Shown in pieces: positions 975-57,215 of a stretch of DNA of 64,000 bases. The notes below the pieces were generated by a model, which did not search any database, was not told where the DNA came from, and saw nothing but the letters and a program-made list of their open reading frames with translations. This DNA comes from Paenibacillus sp. 37 (GTDB lineage: Bacteria; Bacillota; Bacilli; Paenibacillales; Paenibacillaceae). Position numbers and translations under genes: made by a program. Position 1 is the stretch's first letter. Every line of letters begins with the position of its first letter. The stretch is taken from the NCBI RefSeq assembly GCF_008386395.1, contig NZ_CP043762.1, positions 248,001-312,000 of the forward strand, read 5' to 3'.

Positions 975-1071
975 AAAAAAAACGCACCTTGCCCAAGATT
1001 GGGTAGATGCGTACTTCGCATATGGATTATTTGATTCTCATAAAGATAACATTATTTAATGTGTTTCTCAA
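975..1071 (-). promoter_or_regulatory. Promoter plus terminator leader of the 380-919 gene
   Basis: On the minus strand: -35 TTGAGA (1066-1071), 17-bp spacer, -10 TATCTT (1043-1048), 7 bp, then ATCAAATA (1028-1035) as the likely start of the RNA. GCGAAGTACGC follows (1009-1019), running into a hairpin that ends in eight U residues (975-982), about 55 bp upstream of the start codon. This is a promoter-proximal intrinsic terminator, so the gene downstream must be reached by read-through. Promoter spacing, start sequence and GAAGNAC element match the leaders at 15.7, 27.5, 32.5, 40.7, 41.9, 43.8 and 57.1 kb. Confidence 0.8.
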
Positions 1072-1210
1072 CACTGGATGTTGGAAAAGGTCTTGAATCA
1101 GAAAGGTCAAATAATTAATAGATACACCTATTCATTTCTAAGTGAAGAGATGAACGGAATCTTACTCCCAACAACCTTCCCCCAAAATGGGTCTGCTTAT
1201 CAAAGGTTAA

Positions 1211-3430
1211 ATAAAATACTTATATTACTGAATATATTATGTAATATTTAATTGTTCAATTATGTACTATTTTATCGAGTTCAAATTTCCGTATATTAAT
1301 CGGGTTCATTAGATTATCTTTATGAGATAAGGAAGCGAATGCTAAACATTTAAATGCATTACTATTTTCCCGGAGCAAGGTAAATTCATCTTATGGTTAA
1401 TGAATAATAATATATTACTGAATATAAAACTTAATACTCAAATCACTTTGCTCTATAGAATATCGTCTACAGCTTAAATAGTAAGTATTATTGTTCAGTA
1501 ATATTAATATATTATTTAAACTTAATACTTCTATTAATCGCACAACTAAGAAATGTCCAGCTCTTATTAATTTTGACTGTTGTTCATGTAGAAAGGCAAA
1601 GTAAGGAATTTAGTAAGGAGGTATTTGTTACACAATGCAAACTTACTGAACTCAAATAGGAAAGTACGGAAAATAATCAATAATACTTCAACCAATCAGC
1701 GAAAAACATCACACGGCATTCTGCCGACGAAATTGCACCATCTTCAAGACGGAGCAATAAAAAACGCATAAGAATACATAGAGTCACTAAATATCATAAC
1801 GCTGGTTACAAATCATACAGAAGAGAGGTTTACTCGTGATGTCTGTTAAGAAAGTAAAATGGTATGGGAAACAACTTGTTTAATTGGGGCAATGGGTCCA
1901 ACAAGCGAAATTATTTCATTCTGTGGAATAGATACAGAAATACTTTACACATTCATATAGCGGTCTGCATAAATTCATTCTCATGAAGATTGAGGATGTA
2001 AGTACGAGCCTAAACTCTTAACTGATTGTTACGAGAAATTCATTCAATCGGTACCGCTTCCCAACGCGTTCACATTTTCGATCGTTGTCTAAGTAATCGC
2101 AGTTTACATAGTTCATATTCCCTGGAGACTAACGGTATATAAGTTTCTTCAGTGTTTCGATACTACTTAAGATAAAAAATATGTATATTAAGCTGGTATC
2201 AGATATTTCATTTCATCGATCATTTATATGCTGAATAAGTTACAAGTTGCGTGGTACATAGATAAATCAGATACTGAATAGTTATTTGCAATGAATTGAT
2301 ACGTTATCGTAGATTTGATTATTCAATCATTTAATTATTTATCGATTTTTCTGTTTTATTCTTTCTCTTCTTGATCTGAAGTAGCTCTCAAATCCTTGAT
2401 AACACTGGGTTTACTAGCGATCTAAACTCGGAAGAAGAAATTTATTATTGACTGATAATTTGTGAGTGAAGATTTGGTGCGTTATCGCATTTTATATCAT
2501 TCAATCATGTTATAATCTATAGCTTTCTTAAGTTTTATCCTTCCCCTTTTCAAAAAAAGGATAAGCTAAACCCTTGATAATACTGACTTTTCGTAGATAT
2601 TTTATAGAATTCATAATCATAATATGAGATTGCCTAGATTCGTAGGGACAAGATGTAAGTGCACCCAAATTACATTATCGATTCGACTAATTTTAAAGTA
2701 CCCATCAACAGCATCTCCAAATTAGCTAGATGATATACTTCAAACAATTAAAGATTAAGGTGGCGAAATAATATACTTGAAGGAGAAAACACACTTGATA
2801 GCTTAATTAAGATTGAGTAGCTAATTAAAACTTTTTTTACGGAGATTCTATATGATTCGTATACTTTTTATAGAGACCTTAATATGTAAGTAAGCATTAT
2901 CTTAACTAATACGTCTAGGTGATTACAGCGAAGGAACACTGTATTTCACAAAACGGATTACTTAGTCTTTCCTCCTTGATAATCTTCAACTCTATTGAAA
3001 CGGGTAAATGTTCACATTACTCATTAAGTTGAGTTCCAAAAAATGTTGTCGCTACTCAATACTACTGAAAACAGCTAAACAAATTTTAAGAAATATACGA
3101 AATCTCGTGTATAGCAAATCCTTAATGTGTTAATACTATTAATAGGGAGCTTTTAATTCGCAGTATAAGCGTAAGCGTCATATGAAATTTACATAATATA
3201 AATATATTCAACAAAGTATTTAGTTTACTGAACATTTTTGAAATTCAGACATTATATTTTTGAATAAAGCAATACGCTGTGTTAATGCAACATGCGATGG
3301 ATTGGTGAGTTGTTTATAAATTACATATTATGATTATAATCAAATAACTACACCTGAATTTAGCGTCTCTTAGGGATTAGCTATTCTGCCAGGTCACATG
3401 AGCTGTACATGTAAACGCACTAGATTTTTT
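1211..3430. repeat. Degenerate left flank of the giant repeat array
   Basis: About 2.2 kb without credible genes. It holds scattered array motifs, for example ATATTACTGAATATATT near 1221 and TATTACTGAATATAAAA near 1410, in inverted orientation relative to the main array. Two diverged ~160-bp direct copies lie near 2290-2450 and 2460-2620. They share GTTATCG, ATTCAATCAT and TTTTATCCTT blocks that recur in the ordered array (GCTTTATCCTT near 4301). It looks like older, decayed units. No ORF here has a ribosome binding site. Confidence 0.6.
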
Positions 3431-6400
3431 TCATAATACTAAAGTATTCAGTTTATTATTACTTTAAAAACATTGTTTAATATATCAGATCTTATCGGAA
3501 TAAGATGATGTGGTTGTTTATCCCAAACTATATGTTTATTCAAAGTGCGGTTATGCTCTGCGAAAGACTATCAAACGAATCGAGTCAAATTTCCATAATA
3601 GATCATAACAGTGTTTTACAAGACATAATGCACCTTATTTATTACAACATATATTACGTAATATATGAGTATTCAGTTTTATATTCGATTTTAAGTGTCA
3701 ATTCACACCATATCCTAGCGGAAGTTAACTCAATTAACTAGTCTGTTGGCATCAACAACGTATTTGTGTGAACAAGCCATATTCTTACTTAATACAAACG
3801 TATTCAGTTTACTATTACTTCTAAATAATGATTATACAAGCAACCCCTCAGTTCATGGTAGATTAAGCTTAGGGGTTTTAGTTACCACACTCCATGAATG
3901 TACAGTGTACGTAAGAAAAGCGAATTTCAAAGGCCACCGACAATATAAATCTCCAATGGATGGCATGAAGTGATCTTATGAGAATACTACATGTTAGCTT
4001 ATAAATCACATAATAAATTCAGTAACGTATTGAACACTCAATATGAAGAATCATTGTATCAAAAAGTTACTCTCTCATTAAAATTACATAAACTGTTACG
4101 TTGTATATTACGTAATATATAAGTATTCAGTAATATCATATTTGGGGTGTAGCACAACAATCAATAGATGATTATACATAATCAATGAGTATTCGTGCTT
4201 AGTAATGTATACTTCTTATTCAGATTACTGAACTTGAATATATTCATTCAAGTACTGAGGTTACTTAATACTTGATGACACCACAACTGATCATTTTGTC
4301 GCTTTATCCTTTTTCTATGCGTTAAAGAAGGATAAGTAAATAACTTTCAAGTCAGATAACCTGAATATATTCAGTTATATATTCAGGTTACTAAACGTGA
4401 ATAATCATCCCATACTACAAGCACAAGATAACTCAATAATACCTCTGACGGGATCAACAGGTACTCGTCATGAACAAGCCAGATTCTTGCTTAAACAAAC
4501 GTATTCCGTTTACTGTTAGTTGAAACTAATGATTACACAGGCAGCCCCACTGCTTATGCTGGATTATGTCGAGGGGTTTTAGCTACGACACCCCATGTAT
4601 GTTCAGTATCGGTCAAGCTGTACAGGAGAATTCGAAATACCATCATGAGTATAAATCTCCAGTACGTGGCTTGATATGATCTTATGAGTGTACAGGGTTA
4701 ACTTATATATTACATAATATATTCAGTAACTTATTCACTATTCAATATGTAAAATTATTCAATCAGAACGATCAGTATCTCTTTTGAAATAACAAATTAA
4801 ATCATATATTACGTTGTATATTACGTAATATATAAGTATTCAGTTAATATTACATTTGAAATTAAGCACTACAATCAATAGAAGATTATAAGGGATCAAT
4901 CAGAATCTATTCTTGGCAATCTATACTGCTTTTTCATATTATTGAACTTGGATTTATTCAATTTAGTATTTAGTTTACTGAATATTTTATAACACTACAC
5001 CGAGTCATTAATCGCTAAAAGGAAATATGTCTTGATTCTATACGTTATAAAGAAGGATACATATGTGATATTCAAATAAAGTAATATGAATATATTCAGT
5101 TATATATTCAGGTTCCTACGCATGAATAGACACCAGATACTAGAAGAACGTTAACTCGATTAACTCCTCTGTGGGTATCAACAACGTATTAGTTTGAACC
5201 AGCTAATTTCTTCCTTAATACAAACGTATTCAGTTTACTGTTACAGTTAGCCCCTCAGTTTATAGTGAGCATACTTTAATGTATGTTAACTGTACCGTTA
5301 AGCTGTACAGGAGATTTCGAAAGGCCACCGAGAGTAGATATCCCTATCTTGTGGCTTGTTGGCCTCGTGTGAATACTCACTGGTAGTATTAAATAATATA
5401 TTCAGTAACATATTATACAATGATAATGAAGAATCATTGTATCAGAAAGATTAATGGGTTCTTGAAATTACATCATCTATTACGTTGCATATTACGTAAT
5501 AGATAAGTATTCAGTAGAAACTAAATTGGAATGTGGAAACACAATTCAATAGATGATTATAAGTCATCAATTTGTATTCATGCTTGGTAGTATAAACTGT
5601 TTATTTAATTTAATGAACTTGAATATATTTAATCAAGTATTGAGTTTACTGAATAGTTTATAACATCACAGTCGCTCATTTATCGTTAAAAAGCGAATAT
5701 GCATTGATTCTATGCGTTAAAGAAGGCTACGTATGTAACATTCAAATAATTTAATATGAATATATTCAGTTATATATTCATGTTACTTCATATGAATATA
5801 CATCACATACTAAACTAAAAGCAGAAGTTTATTTGAATAACACCTCTACGGAGATAAATAACGTATTAGTAACATACAAGCAATGCTTAATATAAACGCA
5901 TTCAGTTTACTGTTACTTGGACCTATTGATTATACAGTCATCCCCACCGCTTATGGTGGTTTAAGCCGTGGGGTTTTAATTACGACACCCTATGTATGTT
6001 TAGTTTACGGTGAAATTGTACAGGAGAATTCGAAAAGCCACCTAGAGTATAAATCTACTTTGGGTGGCTTTTAATGGTCTTATAAGAATACTAACAGTTA
6101 ACTATATTACATAATATATTCAGTAACGTATTAAATACTTGCTGAGAAGAACATTGTATTGAAAAGATCAGTATTTCTTTCGAAATTATAAATTACATCA
6201 TATATTACGTTGTGTATTACGTAATATATAAGTATTCAGTTAGTATTACATTGGAATGTAACACTATAATTTAATAGATGATTTATAAGTCATCAATGAG
6301 TATTCATGCTTGACAGTAGATACACATTATTCAGATTACTGAACTTAAATATATTCAATTTAGTATTTAGTTTACTAAATATTTTATAGCACTACACCGA

Positions 6401-9400
6401 GTCATTAATCGCTAAAAGCAGATATGTCTTGATTCTATACGTTATAAAGAAGGATACATATTTGATATTCAAATAAAGTAATATGAATATATTCAGTTAT
6501 ATATTCAGGTTCCTACATATGAATAAACATCACATACTAAACACAGAAGTTTATTCGAATAACACCACTACGGGGATAAACAACGTATTAGTAACATACA
6601 AGCGCTAAAATCTTGCTTAACATAAACGCATTCAGTTACTTGGAACTATTGATTGTACAGTCATCCCCACCGCTTATGGTGAATTAAACCGTGGGGTTTT
6701 AGTTACGACGCCCTATGTATGTCTAGTATACGGTGAAGTCGTACAAGAGAATTCGAAAAGCCGTAGAGAGTATAAATCTCCTTTGGGTGGCTTGTAGTGG
6801 TCTCCTAAGAATACTAACTATTATTTATATTACTTAATATATATTCAGTAACGTATTATATACTTGCTGATAAATTGTATCAAAAGATCAATACTTATTT
6901 TGAAATTACAAATTACATCATCTATTACGTTGTATATTACGTAATATTTAAGTATTCAGTTAGTATTCCATTTGAAATGGAACACTACTATGCAATAGAT
7001 GATTATACATCATCAATGAGTATTCATTCTTGGCAGTATGTACTGCTTATTCAGGTTACAACACCAGATCATTTATCACTAAAACGGGATATGTCTTGAT
7101 TCTATACGTTAAATAAGGATACGTATGTGACATTCAAACTAAATAATATAAATATATTCAGTTGTATATTCAGGTTCCTACATCTGAATATACTTAACAT
7201 AGCTGAAGCAAAAGTTTATATTATTACTGCCTTTGTGGAGATCAACAACGTATTTGTAATAATCAAGCTCAATCCTTGCTTAATATAAACATATTCAGTT
7301 TACTGTTACTTTGAACAAATTATTATATAGTCCGCCCCTCAAGTTTATGGTGGATTAAGCAGAGGAGTTTTAGCTACCATACTTTATATATTATGCTTTA
7401 CAAGAGAATTCGAAATGCCATTGATTTTATTTTGAGGCTTATAGATCTTGTCTGAATACTGAAAGGTAAATTGTAAATTACATAATATATTCAGTAACGT
7501 ATTAAATACAATCTCAGAAGAACCTTTGTATCGAGAAGATTAGTATTCTTTTGATAATATATATTACATAATCTATTACTTTGTATATTACGTAATAAAT
7601 GATTATTCAGTTTTGATAAATTTTATATGAAGCACTGCAATTCAATAGATGATTATAAGTCATCAATGAATATTCATGCTTGACAGTAGAAAAACATTAT
7701 TCAGATTACTGAACTTAAACATATTCAATTTAGTATTGAGTTTACTGATTAGTTACTACACCACACAGGTCATCTATCGCCAAAAGCGAACATATCTTGA
7801 TTTTATGCGTTAAAGAAGGCTTAGTATGCAACTTTCAAATAAGTTAACCTGAATATATTCAGTTATATATTCAGGTTACTACATATGAATATACATCACA
7901 TACTAAAAGCAGAAGTTTATTCGAATAACATCTCTACGGGGATAAACAACGTATTAGTAACATACAAGCTGTATTCTTGCTTAATATAAACACATTCAGT
8001 TTACTGTTACTTGGAACTATTGATTATACAGTCATCCCCACCGCTTATGGTGGATTAAGCCGTGGGGTTTTAGTTACGACACTCTATGTATGTCTAGTAT
8101 ACGGTGAAGTCGTACAGGAGAATTCGAAGAGGCACAAAGAGTATAAATCTCCTTTGGGTGGCTTGTTAGTGGTCTTATAAGAATACTAACTGTTACTTAT
8201 ATTACATAATATATTCAGTAACATATTATATAGATGCTGAGAAGAACATTGTATCAAAAACAGCAGTATTTCTTTTGGAATTATAAATTACATCATCTAT
8301 TACGTTGTATATTACGTAATATTTAAGTATTCAGTTATTATTCCATTTCAAATATAACACTACTATTCAAAAGATGATTATAAATAATCAAAGAGTATTC
8401 ATGCTAGGCAGTATGTAATGCTTATTCAGGTTACAGCACCACACCAGGTCATTTATCACTAAAACGGATATGTCTTGATTCTATACGTAAAGAAGAATAC
8501 GTATGTGACACTCAACCCAAATAATATAAATATATTCAGTTATATATTCAGGTTCCTACATCTGAATATACTTAACATAGTTGAAGCAGAAGTTTATATT
8601 ATTACTACCTCTGTGGGGATCAACAACGTATTTGTAATAAACATGCTGAATTCTTAATTAATATAAACGTATTCAGATTACTGTTACTTGAAATTATTGA
8701 TTATATGGTTAGCCCCTCAGTTTATGGTGGATTAAGCTGAGGATTTTTAGTTACGTTCGGAGTAAGACAGTGAATTTTAGAGGACACAGGGGGTATAGGG
8801 CAACCATTGGATGCTTTGTAGCGGTCTTATGAGAACTCTAAAAGTTAACTTATATATTACATAATATATTCAGTAACGTATTGAACACTCAATATGAAGA
8901 ATCATTGTATCAAAAAAGTTATAACTCTTTGAAACTACATAAACTGTTACGTTGTATATTACGTAATATATAAGTATTCAGTAATATAATTTTTTGTATG
9001 TAGCTCAACAATCAGTGGGTGATCATACATAATCAAAATGTATTCGTGCTTAGTAATATATACTGCTATTCAGATTACTAAACTTGAATATATTCAATCA
9101 AATATTGAATTTACTGAATAGTTTTATATAACCACTCTGATTTATCGCAAGAAGCGACTATGTTTTGATTCTATACGTTAAAGAAGGATAATGAGATGCA
9201 ACCAATAAAATAACCTGAATATATTCAGTTATATATTAAGGTTACTACACTGAAATACAAGTATCATAATCAGAAGCAAAAGGTAACTTCTCTGTGGAGA
9301 TAACACTGTATTTATAATGAACAAGCTAATTTGTTCATTAACACTAACGTATTCAGTTTACTGTTACTTGAAACTATTGATTACACAACTAGCCCCTCAG

Positions 9401-15722: not shown

Positions 15723-15841
15723 TTGACACAAACCAGTTAATAATCTATATTGTGTATAAATAAACCAAATATGATCCGGACGGGTCCTCAAAAAAAGCGA
15801 AGCACGCTCAATGCCTTAGGCATTAAGCGTGCTTTTTTTTG
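15723..15841 (+). promoter_or_regulatory. Promoter plus terminator leader of the pilus operon
   Basis: TTGACA (15723-15728), 17-bp spacer, TATATT (15746-15751), then CCAAATATGATCC. GCGAAGCACGC (15797-15807) runs into the hairpin AGCACGCT...AATGCC-tta-GGCATT...AGCGTGCT (15801-15833), with eight or more U residues. The first gene starts 34 bp later. This is the strongest promoter/terminator pair in the family and is almost identical to the leader at 27.45 kb from -10 to the ribosome binding site. Confidence 0.85.
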
Positions 15842-27429: not shown

Positions 27430-27548
27430 TTGACAATATACACCCTTACCCTTTATATTAAGTATAATTAAATCAAATATGATCTTTTATCAAAGGTCAC
27501 AAAAGCGAAGCACGCTTAATGCCATCAGGCATTTTGCGTGCTTTTTTT
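27430..27548 (+). promoter_or_regulatory. Promoter plus terminator leader upstream of the SLH operon
   Basis: TTGACA (27430-27435), 18 bp, TATATT (27454-27459), then ATCAAATATGATC. GCGAAGCACGC leads into a hairpin (27509-27542; AATGCC-atca-GGCATT at the tip) with seven U residues. It matches the pilus leader through to AAAGGGGTGA, including a TTG codon at the right place (27575), but that TTG is followed at once by TAA. The first real gene starts 160 bp later. The copied leader was probably kept after its small gene was lost. Confidence 0.8.
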
Positions 27549-32427: not shown

Positions 32428-32531
32428 TTGTGAAACAGTTTTGTATCATTTATAATGAAGTTAATCAAATACACAATTAAACGGAAGCACCGTCATCTTA
32501 AGGATACCCTTATGGATTGGCGGTGTTTTTT
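32428..32531 (+). promoter_or_regulatory. Promoter plus terminator leader of the 32549 gene
   Basis: TTGTGA (32428-32433), 17 bp, TATAAT (32451-32456), 7 bp, ATCAAATA (32464-32471). GGAAGCACCGTCA leads into a hairpin with GGCGGTG and an inner TTAAGG/CCTTA stem (32486-32525), then eight U residues. The gene starts 18 nt later. Same design as the other leaders. Confidence 0.85.
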
Positions 32532-32548
32532 TATTGTAGGAGGCATTT

Positions 32549-33586
32549 ATGAATAAAAGCATTCAAAAACCTTTAGTCATGGGAAATTACTACTATGGAG
32601 ATGGAGAAATGGCTTGGGCATGGTGGCAATATAATCAAGCTGAACTAGCAATTATAGGCGATAAAACACTCTCACCACGTAGGCAGCTTGTTTCCCATAT
32701 CACGAATGAAATTAGCAAGCGAGATCCTCAGGCAGTTTTTATGATTTCAACAGAGGCTCCTCAGCTTGGCGAGGCATGTACAATTGAGTCTATTCCATGG
32801 GTGGAAGGCTATCCCGATCCACCTGAATTCTTCGAGGATCGAAGTGTATTTATTGAAACCAGACACTTTTTTTCGAACTCTTATTTCAACCTGTTGGCAA
32901 AGATACTAGATGTCCCACGAAGCCAACTATTGCCACCCATTAGTTTTAAACCGCATATTGAGGGACCACTACAAGGTTACAAGAGAGCTATTGAGTCTCT
33001 TAGCGATGATGTGATCTATAAAGAATTGCTTATGGATCACCAGTTAAAGATCGGAAAGATCCCTTGGGTTCAATTGAAGGATCACGGAAAAAGATATTAC
33101 ATTGAAGCTACGGGGAGTGTTTATGAACAGGCACTATCCTTTCTAACTGCTGCTTGGTCTTTCTGGAGCATGACCTGTCAAATGGATGATCCTCAACAAA
33201 TGTTACTAGTCGTTGAGTTACCAAAAGAATTACTTCGTCATGATGTAGATCCAGTAATTGAAAAGATAGTCATAGAAACTTTGAAAATTTTGAAATATGT
33301 TTCGATCGTCACCACAACTTCTATTATTCTCTCATCAGAAATGTTGTATCCTGCACCTGAATTGAAGCTACGCTTCAAGTTGTTTTTTCAGACAGAGGAC
33401 TCTGATATCGATCTTAATCACGAGAGCGTAAAGAATGTAATTGATCCTGAGTTACTTCAAGAATGGAAGAATGGAAATCCTAACGTGGGTTTATGGATGG
33501 ATGACGTCACCAGTAATCCCGATGACACTAGAGTCGTTGTAAAAGTAGGAGATCAGAGACCATTTTTCTGGGATGATTATGAATAA
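32549..33586 (+). CDS. Hypothetical 345-aa protein
   Basis: Not recognised. The soluble 345-residue protein opens with MGNYYYGDGEMAWAWWQYNQ, an aromatic-rich stretch, and alternates strands and helices afterwards. MLLVVELPKELL (about 222-233) resembles a Walker B strand, but no Walker A is visible, so at best it is a degenerate P-loop protein. ATG 32549 follows GTAGGAGG. It is a single gene behind its own leader and ends in a small hairpin that overlaps its stop (33581-33603). Strong expression control suggests a real function in plasmid biology. Confidence 0.7.
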   Translation: MNKSIQKPLVMGNYYYGDGEMAWAWWQYNQAELAIIGDKTLSPRRQLVSHITNEISKRDPQAVFMISTEAPQLGEACTIESIPWVEGYPDPPEFFEDRSVFIETRHFFSNSYFNLLAKILDVPRSQLLPPISFKPHIEGPLQGYKRAIESLSDDVIYKELLMDHQLKIGKIPWVQLKDHGKRYYIEATGSVYEQALSFLTAAWSFWSMTCQMDDPQQMLLVVELPKELLRHDVDPVIEKIVIETLKILKYVSIVTTTSIILSSEMLYPAPELKLRFKLFFQTEDSDIDLNHESVKNVIDPELLQEWKNGNPNVGLWMDDVTSNPDDTRVVVKVGDQRPFFWDDYE

Positions 33587-40727: not shown

Positions 40728-40803
40728 TATACTTACGGTAATCAAATATTAAATAAGTGGAAGCACCGCTACGTCGATTGAAGACGTCTAGCGGTGCTTT
40801 TTT
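40728..40803 (+). promoter_or_regulatory. Promoter plus terminator leader of the HTH-NYN pair
   Basis: TATACT (40728-40733), 7 bp, ATCAAATA (40741-40748). GGAAGCACCGC leads to a long hairpin: AAGCACCGCTACGTC against GACGTCTAGCGGTGCTT (40761-40799), with T residues after it. The -35 is poor (TTGATC sits too far up at 40698), so an activator may be needed. The first gene starts about 120 bp downstream. Confidence 0.8.
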
Positions 40804-41859: not shown

Positions 41860-41957
41860 TTGATCAGCTTACATTATTTTGTATATAATAAGCGTAATCA
41901 AATATATGAAGCGACGAAGAACGCGCAAACTCCTAGGAGTTGTGCGTTCTTTTTTTT
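41860..41957 (+). promoter_or_regulatory. Promoter plus terminator leader of the SNase gene
   Basis: TTGATC (41860-41865), 18 bp, TATAAT (41884-41889), 7 bp, ATCAAATA (41897-41904). Then GAAGCGACGAAGAACGCGC and a hairpin, AGAACGCGCAAACTCC against GGAGTTGTGCGTTCT (41919-41950), with at least eight U residues. The gene begins 17 nt later. Confidence 0.87.
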
Positions 41958-43768: not shown

Positions 43769-43861
43769 TTGAGCAACAAGAGAGGTTGTTGTATAATGAG
43801 AACAATTAAATATGCTAACGCGAAGCACGCGAACGTCCTTAGGGATAGTTCGCGTTTTTTT
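43769..43861 (+). promoter_or_regulatory. Promoter plus terminator leader of the membrane protein/GGDEF operon
   Basis: TTGAGC (43769-43774), 17 bp, TATAAT (43792-43797), 7 bp, ATTAAATA (43805-43812). GCGAAGCACGC leads to CGCGAAC-tip-GTTCGCG (43828-43854) and seven U residues. The gene starts 29 nt later after GGGAGGTG. Confidence 0.87.
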
Positions 43862-48622: not shown

Positions 48623-48624
48623 GG

Positions 48625-49005: not shown

Positions 49006-49197
49006 ATGAAAGAACCCGAACGTTATTTAAATAAAGGTCCTAATGTGTTTAAAGTCGTAGGCTTATCATTTAGACCAGAAAAACGCGAGACTGCAACAGA
49101 GAATAAACTATCTATTGGATTTAAAATTGGGGATTGGAATGAACCTATTAATTTTATTCCTTACTTTCAAACGGTAGATAGAACCCAATTACATTAA
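49006..49197 (+). CDS. Small hypothetical protein, 63 aa
   Basis: A charged 63-residue protein (MKEPERYLNKGPNVFKVVG) without recognised motif. AGAAAGGAATTTTTTC gives a reasonable RBS for ATG 49006, and a terminator follows at 49210, so it has the borders of a real monocistronic gene. Confidence 0.5.
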   Translation: MKEPERYLNKGPNVFKVVGLSFRPEKRETATENKLSIGFKIGDWNEPINFIPYFQTVDRTQLH

Positions 49198-49209
49198 AAG
49201 ACGCTCTTC

Positions 49210-49238
49210 AAAGGCTTCCTTATAGGAAGTCTTTTCTT
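49210..49238 (+). terminator. Terminator of the 49006 gene
   Basis: AAAGGCTTCCT and AGGAAGTCTTT form a stem with a 3-nt loop, followed by TCTTCT. Confidence 0.72.
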
Positions 49239-49869
49239 CTATATCAAGAAACAGTGCTTAGTAAATGAGATACAGCAGTTGATTACTTAGATATTCCAAT
49301 GGGGTAAAACGATAATAAAATATACTAGCCCATATAAAAATGGAATTGCGTGTGTACGGTGATTTAGTGAAGAGTAACGCCGTACTGGGGCGGCCAATGA
49401 ATAACAAGTTAAAAGTTTTCGAAACAAGTGCTCCTCGGAATAGAGCAAGTGAAGATACTTCAGTGTGAAGAGCAATCAGAACATCTTCACTATCAGAGTC
49501 ATGCCTGAACGGTTGGCTATCATTGCTTATGCACTCTCATGGTCTGGTATTTCTTAAGGTGGAAGTACACCACATATTCTGTTCCGGATCCTTCCTACGG
49601 CGAAGTTGTGTTTACTGAGAACGCTCAAGTAGTACGAACGAAACACAAGACACCATTAATCGGATTATTCGAGTAGTTCAACTTACCTCGCTCAATGTAG
49701 ACCATCTCGTTTATTAGCGTGTGAGGAAGACGAATACGTCGCGTTCTGCTCCAATAAAGATCAAAGCCTTCCGGCTAGGCCAGAGGGCTTTGTAGATACG
49801 TTCGTCTAAATGAAGATTTTCATACTACATAAAGATCCATATGGCCAAGTACACTTCTTTTTCTCGCAG
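49239..49869. other. Degraded stretch without intact genes
   Basis: About 630 bp of mixed composition. Short frames such as MPERLAIIAYALSWSGIS (49503) stop early. CAAAGCC...GGGCTTTG near 49763-49795 forms a hairpin that could end a transcript on either strand. It looks like debris of lost genes next to a composition change. Confidence 0.4.
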
Positions 49870-50187
49870 TCACTTTAACATCATTCTAGTAAAAAGGAAA
49901 GCCAACAGAAGAATACCACTCAATATGTAAATTGGGATTAAAGCAGATCTTAACGCTGTTTTAGCTAAATGTGGTTTCGTATCTTTCCAAAGAAAATACA
50001 TTAGAATGCCCAAAGGAAAGATAAGAAAAGAAATGATTTGCACTCTATCATTACGTTTCCTTTTTTTCTTATAAGCTTTGGAACAGGGTTTGCATCTTTG
50101 TTGCAACGGTCTGTAAGGATCTATCTTGTATATTCCTTCACAATCTATACATCTTGCATCTGTAACCCATACCCGAACACGTCCCAT
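49870..50187 (-). CDS. Zinc-ribbon membrane protein
   Basis: A 105-aa protein: an N-terminal four-cysteine zinc ribbon (CIDC about residues 13-16, CKPC about 32-35), a Lys/Arg-rich stretch (KAYKKKRKRNDR), and two membrane helices (about 49-67 and 80-102). AGGAGG lies 8 nt before ATG 50187. Topology suggests the ribbon faces the cytoplasm. No function known; similar small ribbon-plus-membrane proteins are common in Bacillota. Confidence 0.65.
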   Translation of the reverse strand: MGRVRVWVTDARCIDCEGIYKIDPYRPLQQRCKPCSKAYKKKRKRNDRVQIISFLIFPLGILMYFLWKDTKPHLAKTALRSALIPIYILSGILLLAFLFTRMMLK

Positions 50188-50312
50188 AATATTCGCCTCC
50201 TTTTACATGAATTCAGGACGAAGATCGGCATATACCTAGACAATTTTATCCAAGGAGAGTTTTTTTCGCAACTTTATTTTTAAACTGCATGAGAAGCAAG
50301 TTCGTTATTATC

Positions 50313-50472
50313 ACATCAGGTAAAAGCATTGGCTGAAGAAGTTCTGCAGCTGTTCCCAAATAAAGTACTTCAACGGGTGAAAGATAACGAGCTCTGCCAT
50401 GAATGCTCAATGTGCAGGAAATGCTCGCGTATCCAAAAGAAATATGTAGAAAATGCTGCAGAAGCAATAAGC
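50313..50472 (+). pseudogene. Possible remnant with a CxxC-x3-CxxC motif
   Basis: One plus-strand frame reads ALAEEVLQLFPNKVLQRV and then CHECSMCRKCSRI, about 50 residues without a start codon or RBS. It looks like the tail of a lost zinc-binding protein. The rest of the 50188-50689 gap holds nothing I can support. Confidence 0.25.
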
Positions 50473-50689
50473 TGATTACTTGTACTAATCCAATATCTGA
50501 GATAGTGTTTCTTGCGGTTACTATTGGAAGGCCCGATCTATCACTATGTTGATCCATATCGTGTAGAGAATACCTCGGCATTACACTTACGAAATATAGA
50601 GAAGTAAATTGCTAAACCCATGATGACGATAATGAATAAAGACGGGTGTTCTCCCAAATCAAGAGCGCTGAATTAAAAGGAGAAAGTTT

Positions 50690-51907
50690 ATGAAAAAACA
50701 GTTTATTAAATTCGCAGGAATCGCACTGGCAGCAGCACTTATCGTAGGTACGATGAGCATCACGACACCTAATGCGCAAGCTGCTACAACTCCATTTTCC
50801 GACGTACAATCGACCCATTGGGGCGCCAGTGCCATAACCAATGGCGTTTCCAAAGGCTATGTCGATGGATACACGAACGGTACTTTTAAGCCAGACGCTA
50901 GCGTCACACGCGCAGAGTTCGTGAAGATGGTCGTTTCGGCTATGGAACTTGAAACTACGCCATCCAGCGGTAAATGGTACACCGAGTACGTTGACGCCGC
51001 AAGCCAAGCAGGCCTTTACGCATCTACCGATTTCAACAATAGCGAAGCGGCTTGGGCGAAAGTCATATCACGTGAAGAAATGGCTCGTGTTGCAGCTCGT
51101 GCGATCGGGGAAACAACAAAGGAAGATGACAAATGGATGTATCTCGCTACGAAAGCCGGTCTCATTAAAGGCGTCGGTATAGGGCAGATCGCTCCGAAAG
51201 GACTGACCACGCGTGCGCAGGCAATCGTTGTCATCGAACGTATTCTTTCCAAAAATACCGGCGCTTCTCTTGACGTCGATAGGTATGCGGTCGGTAGTGC
51301 TGAAATCGCTTGGCACGGTACAAACATCTTCACCGTGATGCCGGAAATGTGGGTAACAACGGAATCCGATCTGAGACAAGCTAGAAAAGATTCGGTGGAG
51401 GAAATGTGGAACGAGGAACGGATGACGATCACGTCAAAAGACGGGCTCTATCAAGGCAAGCTTGACGCACTTATCGCCATCGACCTTGCAGATCCCAACG
51501 ACCCTAACCTTGGATTGATAAAGCCGATCAATACGCTCAAATGGTTCAATAATGATCCATCAAACAAAAACCTAATGGTAAAAGACCAGAAAAACAGTTT
51601 TTACGTCCTCTATTTCAAAGGTGGAACGGTATTTAACAAAGATCCTAAAAGATATAATACTTATGATTATCTGAAGTTTCGGGTCGATGGCTTTAATAGT
51701 CCTGATCTAGATGCCTTTTTTGATAAAGGAGTGCTAAATAAAGTAGCTAGTCTTTATCGAGATAATTTTAATGACATTCCTGCCGTTATAATCCCCAAAA
51801 CGGGAACAGTGCAAAATAACTGGGATTTGGCAATTGGAATTCAAACACCGGCAGGTGGATGGTGGTTCAGCGAAAGTATTCTACTCCGTCTCGAAGGTAC
51901 CCAATAA
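50690..51907 (+). CDS. SLH-domain surface protein, mosaic composition
   Basis: A 405-aa secreted protein with signal peptide 1-32 (ends NAQAA) and three SLH repeats (about 36-80, 95-145, 150-195; THWGASAITNGVSKGYVDGY). The C-terminal domain starts near 205 (IAWHGTNIFTVMPE) and resembles that of the 27740 protein, so they are paralogs. AGGAGAAAG precedes ATG 50690. The first ~850 bp are clearly richer in G+C than the plasmid, and the rest is AT-rich, which points to recombination near 51.54-51.65 kb. Single gene; no terminator leader seen. Confidence 0.87.
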   Translation: MKKQFIKFAGIALAAALIVGTMSITTPNAQAATTPFSDVQSTHWGASAITNGVSKGYVDGYTNGTFKPDASVTRAEFVKMVVSAMELETTPSSGKWYTEYVDAASQAGLYASTDFNNSEAAWAKVISREEMARVAARAIGETTKEDDKWMYLATKAGLIKGVGIGQIAPKGLTTRAQAIVVIERILSKNTGASLDVDRYAVGSAEIAWHGTNIFTVMPEMWVTTESDLRQARKDSVEEMWNEERMTITSKDGLYQGKLDALIAIDLADPNDPNLGLIKPINTLKWFNNDPSNKNLMVKDQKNSFYVLYFKGGTVFNKDPKRYNTYDYLKFRVDGFNSPDLDAFFDKGVLNKVASLYRDNFNDIPAVIIPKTGTVQNNWDLAIGIQTPAGGWWFSESILLRLEGTQ

Positions 51908-52150
51908 AGAAAAAGCGAGATTAAAAAAAAGAGGGTATTCATGAAGAACAATTCAGATTAGCAATGTATCACTCTTTATCACGGTACGACATTGAAAAGA
52001 GCTTGAACTATACTAAATAAGGTCAAATACGCATCGATAATGACTAATCAAGTGACCACAGCGGGATAGCTGCTAGATGTAATGAAATGAATTTTTGCAA
52101 ACTAAGGAATATAGCATGGTTTAATTTTAGTCTTTCGTTAGAGAATATCT

Positions 52151-52315
52151 TTAAATCTCCGTCCGCTTTGTGATATACTCTACTCATACATTAGTAACAT
52201 GGATCTCTAAGGAACAGGCACACGCCACATTCCAATTCTACGTCCTTCAAGGGCGATCTGTATCACTTTTATTTGGTGATCATGTAGAATTCGGAAAGGG
52301 CAGGTGCCTTTTTTT
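52151..52315 (+). promoter_or_regulatory. Large structured terminator leader upstream of nusA
   Basis: TATACT (52174-52179) with a weak TTAAAT 17 bp upstream. The RNA then folds as nested stems: AGGCAC (52217-52222) with GTGCCT (52304-52309), TTCC/GGAA, ATTCTAC (52235-52241) with GTAGAAT (52284-52290), and TATCAC (52261-52266) with GGTGAT (52275-52280). It ends in TTTTTTT. It is a terminator of about 95 nt with several interior elements, so it could also be a sensor. The 5' start sequence does not match ATCAAATA. nusA begins about 820 bp downstream. Confidence 0.6.
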
Positions 52316-52345
52316 GTTGTGTTGATAGGCTATACCTCTCTGAGA

Positions 52346-52378
52346 ATAGGGTGACCTAAAGGTGACCTTAAAGACACC
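52346..52378 (+). promoter_or_regulatory. Second triplet of 11-bp TubR-type boxes
   Basis: GGTGACC at 52350 and 52361, exactly 11 bp apart. The next 11-bp unit is a decayed copy, TTAAAGACACC (52368-52378). Unit TAAAGGTGACC is nearly the same as TTAAGGTGACC at the tubR promoter. It starts about 35 bp after the terminator at 52315. If TubR binds here, the site could be a second centromere element or a control point upstream of nusA. Confidence 0.5.
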
Positions 52379-53132
52379 TTTAACACTTAGGTCCATCCAA
52401 AGAAACCAAAGGAGGTCTATACAAATCCATAAAACACGTATAAACGTACAACTCGCTCATAGGACTAAACCTCTTTTAATACATCCTAGTCCTGCTGCGT
52501 TCTCGCCGCTCATTTTTTGTTTGACTATTTAGCCTGCCTGTTGTATTGCCCTCCTTTTAACGAGGGTTTAGATTTGTAACTAAAAATCTGCTACTTTTAT
52601 TGAACCTGGAACCCTCTTTGCGCGCGGCGCGCACTCACTCTAGCCCTAAAGAAAAGGTATAGATACGTATCTAGGTTTCAGAATTGAAAGTAGATCATAG
52701 ATCCGTGTTTATGTGTCTCAGGGTTGAAGATCTCGTATAAAGGGGAAGGAAAAGGTGAGAAGTAAGAACGTATGCGAGAATAGTAAGAACTTTCCTGTGA
52801 CCGAGTAGTACGATATAATGTATATATGGATGAGTTTTACAGTTGATGGTCTATTGCCCTTCCTCCCTCTCCATATGTGTTGACGATCGTTGCTCTTCGC
52901 ATCTACTAAACGTTCATCATTTTTTTAGAAACAGATACATATACGCTTAGATTTGCGTTTCCATCGAAAGGTACTTGTGCGGTAAAGAATTTATCTCTGT
53001 CTCGAGATCGAAGCTTTTTCTAGTAATACGATTGTGTCGAAAGTATCTATAGCACGATAGGGAGAACGATACGCATACAGAGGGCGGATTTAGCTTGTGT
53101 AGTAAAAATCAGAAAACAAAAGGAGAATGAAA
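52379..53132. other. Upstream region of nusA, about 750 bp
   Basis: GGAGG (52411) is followed by a 35-codon frame that can start only at ATC 52425 or ATA 52419 and stops at 52532. TATAAT lies at 52814-52819. A better promoter for nusA is TTGACG (52880-52885) with TACTAA 18 bp later (52904-52909), which gives a 5' UTR of roughly 215 nt. GCGCGCGGCGCGC near 52620 is a local GC-rich palindrome. Confidence 0.4.
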
Positions 53133-54206
53133 ATGAATAAGGATTTTTTAGTAGCATTAACGGAGATTGAAAAGCAAAAAGGGATTTCAAAAGAAGTTTT
53201 GTTAGAGGGTCTTGAGGATGCACTCGTATCAAGTTACAAAAAGAAGTTCAATACGGCAACGAATGTGCGTGTCGATATTAATCGTACGTCTGGTGCAATG
53301 AAAGTGTTATCAAAGAAAATGGTTGTAGATGATATTATTGATGAACGAGTCGAGATATTGATCGACGAAGCTCGGCAGATCAACCCAGATGTCCAGCTTG
53401 ACGAGTTTATTGAAATTGAAGTTACTCCGAAAGACTTTGGACGGTTGGCTGCTCAAACGGCTAAACAGGTGGTTATGATGAGAATTAAAGAAGCTGAACG
53501 AGCTCTCGTATTTGATGCGTACGCTGGTAAGGAAGAAGAGATCATCACTGGTAAGGTCCAGGGCATGGACTCAACTAACTTATATGTTTTACTAGACCAT
53601 ACCGAGGCTGTCCTACCTATCAGTGACTTGATGCCAAATGAAAAGTTTAAGCTTGGGGATACACTATCAGCGTATATCTCTCGCGTTGAACAAACCTCTA
53701 AGGGAACTTTGGTCATTCTGTCGCGTGTACACCCAGGACATCTGAAGAAGTTGTTTGAAACAAAGATCCCAGAAATACAAGAAGGAAAGGTCGCCATCAA
53801 ATCCATCTCCAGAGAAGCGGGGATCCGTTCGAAGATTGCAGTTACTGCACTAGATCCAGATGTGGATGAAGTTGCGGTATGTGTAGGCGTAAAAGGGCAA
53901 ACTATTCAATCCATTACCAGTGAACTCGGCGGAGAGAAATTAGATATCATTAAATGGTCCAAACAGATGGAAGAGTATGTTGCAAATTCCTTAGCACCTG
54001 CTAAAGTACTTGAGGTCCACATTTTTGACGATGAAGAGGATCCGACAGCACGTGTGATTGTGCCCAATAATCAGCTCACACTTGCGATTGGTTTGAAGGG
54101 GCAAAATGCACGTCTTGCAGCAAAATTAACGGGTTATAAGATGGATCTGTATAGTGAAGATCAAGCATTTAAACAATTCGGCCGTCCAGTAACGATAGTC
54201 GAATAG
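53133..54206 (+). CDS. nusA: Plasmid-encoded NusA transcription factor
   Basis: A 357-aa full NusA. N-terminal RNA-polymerase-binding domain about 1-125 (KGISKEVLLEGLEDALVSSY), S1 domain about 130-200 (ITGKVQGMDSTNLYVLLDHT), KH1 about 200-280 with GVKG, and KH2 about 280-345 with GLKG (LTLAIGLKGQNARLAAKLTG). Length is near the chromosomal Bacillota protein. NusA enhances pausing and intrinsic termination and takes part in antitermination. ATG 53133 is preferred over 53127 because AGGAG then has 7-nt spacing. It is not in the usual rimP-nusA-ylxR-infB context, so it is a second, accessory copy. Its likely targets are the terminator leaders of this replicon (inference). Confidence 0.93.
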   Translation: MNKDFLVALTEIEKQKGISKEVLLEGLEDALVSSYKKKFNTATNVRVDINRTSGAMKVLSKKMVVDDIIDERVEILIDEARQINPDVQLDEFIEIEVTPKDFGRLAAQTAKQVVMMRIKEAERALVFDAYAGKEEEIITGKVQGMDSTNLYVLLDHTEAVLPISDLMPNEKFKLGDTLSAYISRVEQTSKGTLVILSRVHPGHLKKLFETKIPEIQEGKVAIKSISREAGIRSKIAVTALDPDVDEVAVCVGVKGQTIQSITSELGGEKLDIIKWSKQMEEYVANSLAPAKVLEVHIFDDEEDPTARVIVPNNQLTLAIGLKGQNARLAAKLTGYKMDLYSEDQAFKQFGRPVTIVE

Positions 54207-54424
54207 ATTCAGTTCTTTCTACTCAGGGACAACGACACCTTGACTCCATACAATAATTTATAAGGTTAAAGGGTAACAAAGCAGGCACAAAAACGGTCGA
54301 AGATGAAGAAGTCCTCTAATTGCGTTTATAAACGTAAGAGCACCGTCTTGATCCAAATGATAGAACATGCATTTTCAACTTGCGATATGCATTTTTAATT
54401 TCAGTATACAGAGGAGAAGTACAC

Positions 54425-54853
54425 ATGCAGTTCCTCATAAAAATCGGAATTTGTTCGTTTATTCTTAGCATGTTTTTTGTGGCCAATCATATTCACGGCC
54501 TGATACCTCCAAGTGTTTACCGTATCTTTGGTACGATTGGGATATCTCAAATTATTATTTCTTATTACGTGTGGAAAGCTGAATCCTCTCGGATGCAAGG
54601 TCTTATGGATTGTAAACTACCACATGATGAAGTTGAAAAACCTACGATGACAGGACCTATGGTAAGAGGCGCTGTAGTTTCACTAGTATTGTGCGGCACT
54701 CTTTTAGTTCCTCATCTGATTGCAATAGGTGGGGTGTGGATCCTCACCTATGGAATTAGCTTTTTCGTGGTATATACGTTCCTTTCGAAATACATGGGCA
54801 TTCGTCAAGACACAAAGACACTACGTCATAAACAATCTTTGTCACGTTCGTAA
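54425..54853 (+). CDS. Hypothetical membrane protein
   Basis: A 142-aa protein with four hydrophobic segments (about 4-22, 33-48, 80-97, 100-122) and a basic C-terminus. Not recognised. GAGGAG lies 8 nt before ATG 54425; the longer frame from 54380 has no RBS. It is 34 nt upstream of the PadR-like gene and about 220 nt after nusA, so it may share a transcript with them. Confidence 0.6.
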   Translation: MQFLIKIGICSFILSMFFVANHIHGLIPPSVYRIFGTIGISQIIISYYVWKAESSRMQGLMDCKLPHDEVEKPTMTGPMVRGAVVSLVLCGTLLVPHLIAIGGVWILTYGISFFVVYTFLSKYMGIRQDTKTLRHKQSLSRS

Positions 54854-54887
54854 TCAAACTAAAGGATCCGGAAAGTGAGGGAGTCTA

Positions 54888-55661
54888 ATGCCAGTGAAAG
54901 AGGAGATTAAACTCGGTCCAGAACGCTTAGGGCTCAGTGAGAGAGATATCATGTACTTGCTCATCTTTCGTGAACTTCACAATCAGTCGGCATCTCCTTC
55001 AGATATCTTTGAGGTGGTCCGCGCGGAATTAAGTAATATACAACGAGGCCGAGCGAGATCCTATTTCTACAATGTAGTAAGTCAGATGGAATCATTCGGA
55101 TGGATAACAACGATTCGGACGGAGAACAAAAACAATAAAAAATACTACGCTATTACCTCGGACGGTTATGCGAAAATAGATAGTTTTAAAGAATCATGTA
55201 TGGATTCCATGAAGAGTTTAAAAAGTATGGCCGATCACTTTGATTTTCATATCTCGGGTACTGGTAAATCTGAACCCATTCAACTGAATACGCAGCAACG
55301 AAAAATGTTTAACCGATTAATTAACGTGCGACATTTAATCCGGTTCTTATTTTTAAAGATTCTAACTGAAGCCGAACATCGCCAAGAAAGTGGAAAGAAA
55401 GTGTGGTTACTTTTTAAAGAAAGATACGAATGGCAGCCTGCACAAGGCTATTATTACGAGGTACTTCGAGAAATGGAAGTAGACCAGGGATATGTAACAG
55501 GAAAATGGACGACAGATCGGCGTAGCACCTATATTTATCAAATTACGAGTCACGGGTTAGAGTCTATCGCAAGTGAAGCCGAGACTACGCTACACTTCGT
55601 ACGACAGTTACAACACTATACACGTTTTATACTAAATTTGTTTCCTGATCGTAACAGTTAA
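54888..55661 (+). CDS. Regulator with two tandem PadR-like winged helices
   Basis: A 257-aa protein that appears to contain the same fold twice. First copy about 15-105: DIMYLLIFRELHNQSASPSD, FYNVVSQMESFGWI, then KKYYAITSDGYAKIDSF. Second copy about 150-240: YYEVLREMEVDQGYVTGKW, then STYIYQITSHGLESIASE. The Y-x-(Y)-IT-x-x-G wing is the PadR hallmark. PadR proteins normally dimerise, so a covalent tandem may act as a built-in dimer. Start ATG 54888 with a weak GTGAGGGAG site. It sits in the nusA neighbourhood and may regulate it. Confidence 0.6.
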   Translation: MPVKEEIKLGPERLGLSERDIMYLLIFRELHNQSASPSDIFEVVRAELSNIQRGRARSYFYNVVSQMESFGWITTIRTENKNNKKYYAITSDGYAKIDSFKESCMDSMKSLKSMADHFDFHISGTGKSEPIQLNTQQRKMFNRLINVRHLIRFLFLKILTEAEHRQESGKKVWLLFKERYEWQPAQGYYYEVLREMEVDQGYVTGKWTTDRRSTYIYQITSHGLESIASEAETTLHFVRQLQHYTRFILNLFPDRNS

Positions 55662-55751
55662 TGCCGGAACGAATTGCATATTAAATAGACTCAAAGCTGC
55701 ATCTAAATCAGATGGGCTTTGGTAGGGTCATCTCAACAGGAGGAATTACGG

Positions 55752-56360
55752 GTGCAATCTTTAAATTTCGCACTACAACTGTTTAAAGATAGTGGCGTTC
55801 CATTCAAGCTTAGTGGCGAAGCGCAAACAGAAAGAGAACTGAAAGTAACACGTCTAGTTGTAACTAAAGATCATGTTTTACAAGGACATATTCAAACGTA
55901 CTTAAATGTACTAGTGAACGTTGAAAAGAAAAAACAAAAAGGTCACAGCTCTGTGGTCATCTTATTTGACGGGTATGAACATGAAGCCAGAAGAATGTAC
56001 AATGTGCCCGAGTTAAAATCTTGGATCCAAAAACTAGTGAAGAACAAACCATATCTGTTTTATTTTATCGCTAATATGAATGATCATTATGTTCATGATA
56101 TGGCACTATGTTCAGTTACGACTTCAGCTTCTTTTATGCCTACATCTTTATTGGCGTATACGGGTAAATCCCCGGAACTTGAGCTAAACGGAGCAGATGT
56201 TACACCAGTGATTCAAAAACTGGCTAAATCAGCATTTATGTATGCCAAAAAGTTGAAGCACACGCCTGAAGAACTGATGGATCAATGTATAACTTTTCTG
56301 GATCATGTGAAGTACGAAGAACATTTAAAAGAACATAAGCGATTTCTTCAAGAGATCTAG
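55752..56360 (+). CDS. Hypothetical 202-aa protein
   Basis: Not recognised. GTG 55752 with AGGAGG 6 nt upstream is the best start; the frame is open back to 55719 without an RBS. The chain alternates helices and strands (VVILFDGYEHEARRMYNVPE, about 75-94) and looks soluble. A small hairpin, AAAGCTGCATCT/AGATGGGCTTT, lies just upstream. Closed by a terminator at 56381. Confidence 0.6.
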   Translation: MQSLNFALQLFKDSGVPFKLSGEAQTERELKVTRLVVTKDHVLQGHIQTYLNVLVNVEKKKQKGHSSVVILFDGYEHEARRMYNVPELKSWIQKLVKNKPYLFYFIANMNDHYVHDMALCSVTTSASFMPTSLLAYTGKSPELELNGADVTPVIQKLAKSAFMYAKKLKHTPEELMDQCITFLDHVKYEEHLKEHKRFLQEI

Positions 56361-56380
56361 ATAACTTGCCGGTATGACGG

Positions 56381-56407
56381 AAAGCACCTCAAAGAAGGTG
56401 CTTTTTC
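56381..56407 (+). terminator. Terminator of the nusA-region genes
   Basis: AAAGCACCT (56381-56389) pairs with AGGTGCTTT (56396-56404), followed by TTTCTTTT. Confidence 0.9.
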
Positions 56408-56611
56408 TTTTGCCTCTAATGACGGTTTATGAGCAGTTTTAAGCCTCTTCACACAAGAACACCTAATACCAAGGATGAGTCTGAAAACGAGTAAAGCATT
56501 GACGCTGACTGCGCCTGCTTCCTATGTGATGCTTACGCTTCGGTGTATCAAGAGGACGTAAGCAAGGACTTTGCCGTTGTTTGTCGAATGACTGTATAGA
56601 GGTGGTTCATT

Positions 56612-56959
56612 GTGGAGGAATTAATACAAAAGATTACTGCATTTAGAGATGAGCGGGACTGGGGACAATTTCATAATCCCAAGGATCTGGCCATTTCTTT
56701 GAATCTCGAAGCGAGTGAGTTGCTTGAAATATTTCAATGGAAAAGTAACGAAGAAGCCATTGCGAAAAGCAAAGACAAACTTCAAGATGAATTGGCTGAT
56801 GTTCTATATTATGTGTTACTCATGTGCAACGATCTTAATATTGATCCGAAGAAAGCATTAATAGAAAAGCTGAAGAAGAATGCAGAGAAGTATCCAGTAG
56901 ATAAGGCATATGGCTCAAACAAAAAATACACCGAACTTCGTGGGAGTAACCAAGAATAA
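56612..56959 (+). CDS. MazG-like nucleotide pyrophosphohydrolase
   Basis: A 115-aa all-helical NTP pyrophosphohydrolase of the MazG-like/dCTPase class. The motifs are present: WGQFHNPKDLAISLNLEASELLE (about 17-39), with the E-x-x-E pair, and DELADVLYYVLLMCNDLNID (about 60-79), with the E-x-x-D pair that holds Mg. It would clean up non-standard or excess nucleotides. GTG 56612 has AGAGGTGG upstream. A possible promoter (TTGACG near 56498) and a GCTTACG/CGTAAGC hairpin precede it. Such genes are frequent on phages and large plasmids. Confidence 0.85.
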   Translation: MEELIQKITAFRDERDWGQFHNPKDLAISLNLEASELLEIFQWKSNEEAIAKSKDKLQDELADVLYYVLLMCNDLNIDPKKALIEKLKKNAEKYPVDKAYGSNKKYTELRGSNQE

Positions 56960-57125
56960 GGGTCCCTTTCCTTCATTAAGGCTGCATTGTTCATTCATAA
57001 AGTAGTAGATTAACTATCCGTGGGAAAGGTTAATCTTTTGGGTTTTAATTTGGATGGCTTGTTCACATTTAAGTAGAGACCACAGAATAAGAACATATTT
57101 AGCACGCTTCTGGACAGCATACAGG

Positions 57126-57215
57126 GTGACCTCGGTGTAAGATTACGGTATAATGAAATCAATTGAATACTCACAAAGCGAAGCACGCTTCTCCCTATGG
57201 GGAAGCGTGCTTTTT
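57126..57215 (+). promoter_or_regulatory. Promoter plus terminator leader of the topoisomerase-FtsK gene
   Basis: GTGACC (57126-57131, weak -35), 17 bp, TATAAT (57149-57154), 7 bp, ATTGAATA (57162-57169). GCGAAGCACGC leads to AGCACGCTTC-tip-GAAGCGTGCT (57183-57211) and TTTTT. The gene starts 20 nt later. The -35 overlaps a GGTGACC heptamer like those at tubR, perhaps by chance. Confidence 0.85.

Follow-up and report, generated by a model that had tools for sequence, protein, structure and literature searches.

Leaders in the plasmid window

The DNA analyzed here (the window, 64,000 nucleotides) comprises bases 248001–312000 of contig C2, a plasmid of 543,320 bp in the 7.6-Mb genome of Paenibacillus sp. 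37, whose second contig has 7.08 Mb. Its segment from 26 to 46 kb is 96.4% identical, over 97% of the length, to pY5S7-1 of Paenibacillus amylolyticus, which was the sole plasmid record matched in a comparison from which the records of the own genome were perhaps absent. According to the original prediction, at least eight operons of the window share one leader design, in which a promoter and a start sequence of the ATYRAATA type are followed by a GAAGCAC-type element at the foot of a terminator hairpin. All eight leaders were present where they had been placed, and the gene contents named for them (SLH, SNase, GGDEF, NYN, HTH, and topoisomerase-FtsK) hold. The prediction was an understatement in number: a scan of the whole plasmid found 23 leaders of one layout on both strands, all within 65.8–312.8 kb.

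On the minus strand, the leader of a gene for a 179-aa protein (380–919) spans 975–1036, with the 5′ element AATCAAATA, the small hairpin ATGCG-AAGTA-CGCAT (1021–1007), and a terminator whose U-run ends at 975; its start site was set by the 6-nt rule explained below, and its -10 is poor. The other leaders are on the plus strand. That of the Tad-pilus operon (15758–15840), an operon that in the related plasmid includes the Flp pilus gene for TadA, has the 5′ element, the small hairpin AGCG-AAGCA-CGCU (15796–15808), and the terminator, together with an insert that can fold as GAUCC-GGAC-GGGUC. The SLH/DUF5704 operon is preceded by a leader at 27471–27548, which consists of AATCAAATA, the small hairpin AAGCG-AAGCA-CGCUU (27503–27517), and a terminator; its insert can fold as UGAUCUUU-UAUC-AAAGGUCA, and its start site is uncertain, with two -10 candidates. 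The same element AATCAAATA and a terminator are found in the leaders of a gene for a 345-aa protein (32549–33586; leader 32463–32532, small hairpin ACGG-AAGCA-CCGU at 32481–32493), of the HTH/NYN operon (40740–40803, AGUGG-AAGCA-CCGCU at 40756–40770), and of a copper-amine-oxidase-N/SNase gene (41896–41957), where the loop is AAGAA and the small stem is broken (2 bp). The leader of a 127-aa gene and a GGDEF gene (43804–43861) carries AATTAAATA, the small hairpin CGCG-AAGCA-CGCG (43819–43831), and a terminator, and that of the topoisomerase-FtsK gene (57236–60850) lies at 57161–57215 with AATTGAATA, AAGCG-AAGCA-CGCUU (57176–57190), and a terminator.

The window contains 13 copies of GAAGCAC where 5.38 are expected, and none of 100 shuffled sequences reached 13; ATYRAATA occurs 43 times against 31.7, a number reached by 5 of 100 shuffles. 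Because the latter motif alone is barely enriched, its position, rather than its frequency, matters. GAAG[CT]AC is present in seven of the eight window leaders, and the exceptional leader at 41.9 kb has GAAGAAC, with the broken stem found likewise in the near-identical plasmid. A 24th candidate on the plasmid (C2:82186-82254, minus), which was the weakest match of our leader model R2 on the own genome (E 0.61), also has a broken small stem and was left out of the leader count.

A covarying small hairpin

The original prediction took GAAGCAC for the foot of the terminator. This part stands, but the element is more than a foot, because it forms the loop and the right arm of a second, competing hairpin that had been overlooked. 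This small hairpin is a 4-bp stem around an AAGYA pentaloop, and its stem sequence changes while the pairing stays. Among the 23 plasmid leaders, 89.6% of the cells pair and 40 cells are changed on both sides; the covariation is 0.813 against 0.175 ± 0.044 in shuffled alignments (0 of 500 shuffles), and structures shifted by 1–3 columns give only 0.014–0.185. One such change on both sides is seen upstream of the 345-aa gene, where the window stem ACGG/CCGU corresponds to GCGG/CCGC on the 453mf contig (L064). When stems of at least 4 bp around GAAG[ACT]AC were counted over the whole plasmid, they were found at 21 of 23 leader sites and at 24 of 283 other sites; the two leaders with shorter stems have 2 bp (that at 41.9 kb) and 3 bp.

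A second test used 91 distinct stretches from a genome collection and one viral contig, collected with a pattern in which GAAGYAC, GTGCTTTT, and a degenerate 5′ element were fixed, pairs 3–5 were free, and pair 2 could be mispaired. At pair 2, 79 of these database leaders have G-C, 12 have C-G, and none is mispaired; pairs 3, 4, 5, and 6 are formed in 87, 86, 48, and 30 of 91, when 37.4, 48.7, 36.5, and 31.9 are expected from independent columns. Since pairs 3 and 4 are far above chance and pair 6 is at the chance level, the stem has 4 bp or, in some leaders, 5. When 89 leaders (73 from the database loci and 16 from the 23 on the plasmid) were aligned after removal of near-duplicates and of three loci (those of two odd taxa and L100), the covariation was 0.728 against 0.149, and column-shifted structures lost it here too. 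At 40 further sites, which were found without use of the 5′ element, pairs 1–4 are formed in 40, 39, 37, and 32 cases (pair 1 being fixed by the search pattern) and pair 5 in 18. Selection on the leader, as originally proposed, is thus strongly supported by covariation in both plasmid and database leaders, and we are almost certain that the leader family and its covarying hairpin are real.

Promoter spacing and overlap with the terminator

The common layout is a -10 hexamer, AA-NNN-AAUA at the expected transcription start, the small hairpin with its pentaloop (AAGYA in the plasmid leaders, AAGAA in one), and an intrinsic terminator. In most plasmid leaders, the gap between the -10 and the 5′ element is 6 nt as judged by eye, and in the 91 database leaders the best match to TATAAT lies at gap 6 in 42; matches of 5/6 at gap 5–7 occur in 34 of the 91, against 6.0 in shuffled sequences (maximum 13). 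The distance from the 5′ element to the loop is 10–14 nt in 20 plasmid leaders, 28 nt in two, and 6 nt in one, where it becomes larger if the overlapping AACTTAATA is taken as the element. The two long ones are the variants at 15.8 and 27.5 kb that had been noticed as shifted, and their loops lie 28 nt past the element owing to the inserted sequences, which by eye can fold as hairpins of their own. A leader of Paenibacillus nuruki (L141), followed by an HTH gene similar to the one in the pilus operon, has ordinary spacing. The occurrence of long and ordinary spacing suggests recognition at the RNA level, short of a proof. The 5′ element is strong on plasmids and in the leaders of an HRDC gene described below, and weak in other chromosomal leaders. 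On account of this weakness, we have dropped the idea that it is a fixed RNA motif, and it may be a promoter feature rather than a binding site.

Sequences and computed folds show the right arm of the small hairpin to be the 5′ foot of the terminator; because the two share an arm, they are mutually exclusive structures. In many copies, GAAGCACC pairs with GGTGCTT of the terminator, and AAGYA is kept also where the terminator arm matches it incompletely (at 43.8 and 1.0 kb, by eye). For 22 of the 23 plasmid leaders, computed energies range from -15.8 to -36.3 kcal/mol for the terminator and from -3.0 to -9.0 kcal/mol for the small hairpin (for example, -33.0 versus -4.7 kcal/mol); the leader at 27.5 kb is not counted in these ranges, because its internal TTTT was taken as the U-run and its value was computed on a truncated stretch. 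As the terminator prevails at equilibrium, reaching the ON state takes either a binder or kinetics. A second kind of output is seen in the leaders of YifB/ComM genes: in all seven that were fetched and in that of the own chromosome, the start codon follows closely after the hairpin, and an RBS-like stretch lies within its 3′ arm (both by eye). One exclusive pair of structures could, judging from this anatomy, switch either termination or translation, and we infer that, for both outputs, formation of the small hairpin would represent the ON state.

Distribution of the leaders

The view that the family is specific to plasmids was not borne out. All of 40 genomes of the host family, presumably Paenibacillaceae, match the pattern, which gave 174 matches in total where its reversed version gave 5; a match by itself is not a proven leader. 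Among 299 genomes of the class, 27 of 27 family members match, and outside the family 28 of 272 do (35 matches, 10 in controls), so that the leader is sporadic there. Of the 91 stretches mentioned above, 89 carry names placed in Bacillales; the other two, from Cytophagales and a Blautia MAG, are taken for chance matches. At least 10 pattern matches were found on the LS1 contig, and seven leaders in the 49 kb of pY5S7-1 that were examined.

In the own genome, a looser pattern gave 21 matches (control, 1), six of them on the chromosome. Four of these six are leader-like, and a fifth chromosomal leader precedes YifB/ComM. Model R2 found matches in 8 of 75 genomes of the genus at E ≤ 0.01, and all of its 22 matches in the own genome at E ≤ 1 are on the plasmid; the lack of chromosomal leaders suggested by R2 is not real, as those on the chromosome are more divergent and were found by the looser pattern. 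A stricter model, R3, was uninformative on distribution, since in a scan of 398 genomes with 12 candidates scored per genome it matched the own genome only. The distribution described here therefore rests on pattern scans. It appears that a single layer of gene control, which had gone unnoticed before, is common to the plasmid and its host.

Genes behind the leaders

On the own chromosome, the leader-like sites precede genes for a 371-aa exported protein, a CpaE/TadZ-like ATPase, the HRDC protein, and a DEAD helicase that was called ComFA-like from a reading of its first 486 aa. We then picked 40 sites in 11 genomes of the family, setting aside the HRDC sites and several others of these genomes, and assigned the first genes by eye with family checks on representatives. 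These genes are Tad/CpaE in eight, YifB/ComM in seven, an exported protein of about 275 aa in 10, other exported SLH or copper-amine-oxidase-like proteins in eight, ComEC in one, a VirB2-like protein in one, and others in five. The ComEC gene lies 269 nt downstream of its leader (Pfam Competence, E 7.6e-59), YifB is above the cut-off of TIGR00368, and TadA matches T2SSE and, below the cut-off, TIGR03819. The exported protein of about 275 aa, the commonest first gene (L281, L282, L287, L293, L297, L303, L304, L308, L310, L314), had no Pfam match in the one member tested.

The helicase ComM acts in competence. In Liberibacter, Tad/Flp pili are reported to function in DNA uptake, and the same has been proposed for Micrococcus (cited in PMC8370563). 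The exported proteins behind leaders make the gene set wider than DNA uptake. We consider it fairly probable that the regulon is centred on DNA uptake, with exported proteins sharing the leader. In Bacillaceae, the leaders often precede genes of mobile elements, such as TniQ, integrase, recombinase, DUF771, and replication genes (partly assigned by eye); the TniQ-type genes (L082, L106, L116, L131, L139) perhaps belong to Tn7-like elements.

The HRDC gene has one match per genome in 55 of 59 family genomes, and a leader was present in all 44 orthologues read, 35 of them with GAAGCAC; in the remaining nine, the loop is changed to AGGCA, GAGCA, or TAGCA, while the stem GAGG/CCTC, or one close to it, is kept. 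Its product of about 330 aa (G000:C1:1985166-1986149; L171–L217) has a conserved N-terminal domain with no match in Pfam. This domain is found alone on a plasmid of Paenibacillus oralis (L246), where no leader of this type was seen.

Candidate trans-acting factors

A full-length paralog of NusA with 359 aa is encoded in the window at 53127–54206 on the plus strand. Its N-terminal, S1, and KH domains were all found, with Pfam NusA_N, S1, and KH_5 and NCBIfam TIGR01953 above the cut-offs, and the related plasmid annotates nusA for the same ORF. The identity is 98.3% to pY5S7-1, 76% to the P. oralis plasmid, and 73% to the 453mf contig, and the paralog is thus present on four leader-carrying plasmids; it was not found on the LS1 contig, despite the aforementioned pattern matches there. 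Among the best 120 of 7856 relatives, 17 clusters lie at 67–98% identity, followed by a drop to 62% for other Paenibacillus NusA; when nine members of the paralog group were compared with eleven others, S1 and KH1 were most divergent (identities of 0.53 and 0.56). A gene for a core elongation factor on a plasmid is unusual, and this one belongs to a separate group of Paenibacillus NusA. The 740 bases scanned upstream of the gene contain no leader of this type; the region 5′ of it (52400–53126) is long and unusual.

The RNA in the co-crystal of Mycobacterium tuberculosis NusA (2ASB/2ATW), which we take to resemble AACUCAAUA, is close to the leader 5′ element; our literature search on the NusA RNA site found nothing. 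GAAC, which is presumably part of a NusA site, is enriched in the spacers of chromosomal leaders (11 of 40 against 1.8), HRDC leaders (8 of 25 against 1.3), and database leaders (12 of 93 against 4.0), but is absent from the spacers of all 23 plasmid leaders. A point against NusA is that it is universal, whereas the leader device is concentrated in one family. We regard a NusA-type protein as the leading candidate for the leader reader, with low confidence and not as a finding.

Two other proteins were considered as general factors and rejected. The HRDC protein gave only partial, RecQ-type matches in 18 of 22 leader-bearing genomes, P. nuruki and most Bacillaceae included; the other four gave three full matches and one weak match over most of the length (Aneurinibacillus, E 5.9e-22). 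Moreover, two genomes (G119 and G329) have no HRDC protein at E ≤ 1e-20, yet have six and seven leader-pattern matches. An S1-domain protein of the plasmid (292 aa, C2:230269-231144, minus; L361) is itself behind a leader and is common to several leader-bearing plasmids and other contigs. As a general factor (C2:231251, minus), it has clear homologues in only eight of the 22 genomes, and the other 14 gave only weak (38–53 bit), ribosomal-S1-like matches.

Comparison with known systems

An Rfam 15 scan of the window at E ≤ 1 gave two weak snoRNA matches, neither of them at a leader. In RAT-type systems of LicT and SacY, whose readers are BglG-family proteins, a small hairpin shares sequence with the 5′ part of an intrinsic terminator, and stabilization of this hairpin causes read-through. 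Sequences and computed folds predict here the same mutual exclusion of hairpin and intrinsic terminator as in the RAT/BglG type; RAT is a longer hairpin with internal loops, in contrast to the 4-bp AAGYA stem located right at the transcription start. In the dfn leader of Bacillus velezensis, LoaP reads a hairpin with a UNCG tetraloop and NusA is involved (PMC12691694). LoaP resembles the case proposed here as a system of Bacillota with a protein-bound small hairpin near a leader terminator, but the leaders here do not belong to it, having an AAGYA pentaloop and a 4-bp stem that shares an arm with the terminator. Antitermination on conjugative plasmids of Gram-positive bacteria is known from conAn of pLS20-type operons (PMC8955417), which consists of a ConAn1 protein gene and conAn2 RNA and heads one long conjugation operon, unlike the short leader placed here on many separate operons of plasmid and chromosome. 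Our literature search, whose coverage largely excluded subscription papers, found no description of this leader.

Proposed mechanism and alternatives

Attenuation or antitermination, as stated in the original prediction, is the best reading of the shared leader, with termination and read-through as its predicted steps. It is quite probable, judging from the sequences, that the leader is a regulated switch. More specifically, we propose a bistable RNA switch located directly at the transcription start. The polymerase would begin with a short 5′ segment rich in A (AA-NNN-AAUA on plasmids), followed by the 4-bp AAGYA hairpin. The right arm of the small hairpin would then either stay in place or be captured by the downstream arm to form the intrinsic terminator, and the default product would be a short RNA, of about 55–83 nt in the window, that stops ahead of the gene. 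A trans-acting factor would hold the small hairpin, and perhaps also the 5′ segment, so that no terminator forms and the operon is read; in the leaders of YifB/ComM genes, the ribosome-binding site would be released by this change as well. We put the probability of this bistable attenuator, with its putative ON state, protein binding, and termination in the cell, at roughly 60%. The device would control a chromosomal gene set rich in DNA-uptake functions, and mobile elements would rely on this leader, too, for genes of conjugation type, of pili, and of integration. The factor is possibly host NusA for chromosomes and the divergent NusA paralog on plasmids. That a NusA-read switch is the competence regulator of Paenibacillaceae, with host NusA, perhaps in a modified state, activating ComM, ComEC, ComFA, and the Tad pilus while plasmid paralogs run it on transfer genes, is doubtful.

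Ordinary strong terminators near the promoter, which only insulate or dampen while the small hairpin has no role, would account for the aforementioned pairing of the conserved segment with GGTGCTT; however, the left arm is unneeded for a terminator and yet covaries with the right arm, and the covariation is lost when structures are slid by 1–3 columns, so that we consider this explanation very improbable. A kinetic attenuator that works with no factor, in which the small hairpin causes a pause or delay and termination follows the elongation speed, would suit a hairpin that is made first, very near the transcription start, and is weak relative to the terminator. That the AAGYA loop is nearly constant, whereas the stem beneath it is free in sequence, points to specific recognition instead and makes such an attenuator quite improbable.

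Recognition might be by RNA or by a small molecule. The RocC/RocR system of Legionella resembles our case as one RNA-level system for DNA-uptake mRNAs, in which targets of the same kind share a 5′ mRNA motif; it works through an sRNA together with a chaperone, and the abstract of the source does not mention a terminator switch. Here, a trans-acting small RNA would pair with the 5′ segment and/or the AAGCA loop. Positions 3–5 of the 5′ element are often Y, Y, and R, which a fixed RNA could read via G-U pairs, but A and T also occur at these positions, and covariation of the stem is unexpected if only linear pairing matters; this explanation is unlikely. A leader whose 5′ segment and pentaloop hairpin bind a ligand, with the terminator and the RBS as expression platforms, would agree with the occurrence of what seem to be two kinds of output, with the presence of the leader in plasmid and chromosome alike, and with the candidate status of the trans-acting factor. 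The conserved part is, however, very small (about 35 nt with one 4-bp stem), a second conserved helix was not seen in it, and many of the chromosomal copies differ in their 5′ segment, which leaves ligand sensing with a small chance.

Significance for DNA uptake in Paenibacillus

A 2021 study of Paenibacillus polymyxa (PMC8370563) reported homologues of DNA-uptake genes together with Flp-pilus genes and no orthologue of comGB, comGC, or comFA, and left the competence-inducing conditions to future study. A leader common to YifB/ComM, ComEC, the ComFA-like gene, and the Tad operon provides a concrete entry point to the control of DNA uptake in Paenibacillus. It also suggests that plasmids respond to the same signal as the DNA-uptake genes of their host, and that a core transcription factor can exist on a plasmid as a copy for its own use.
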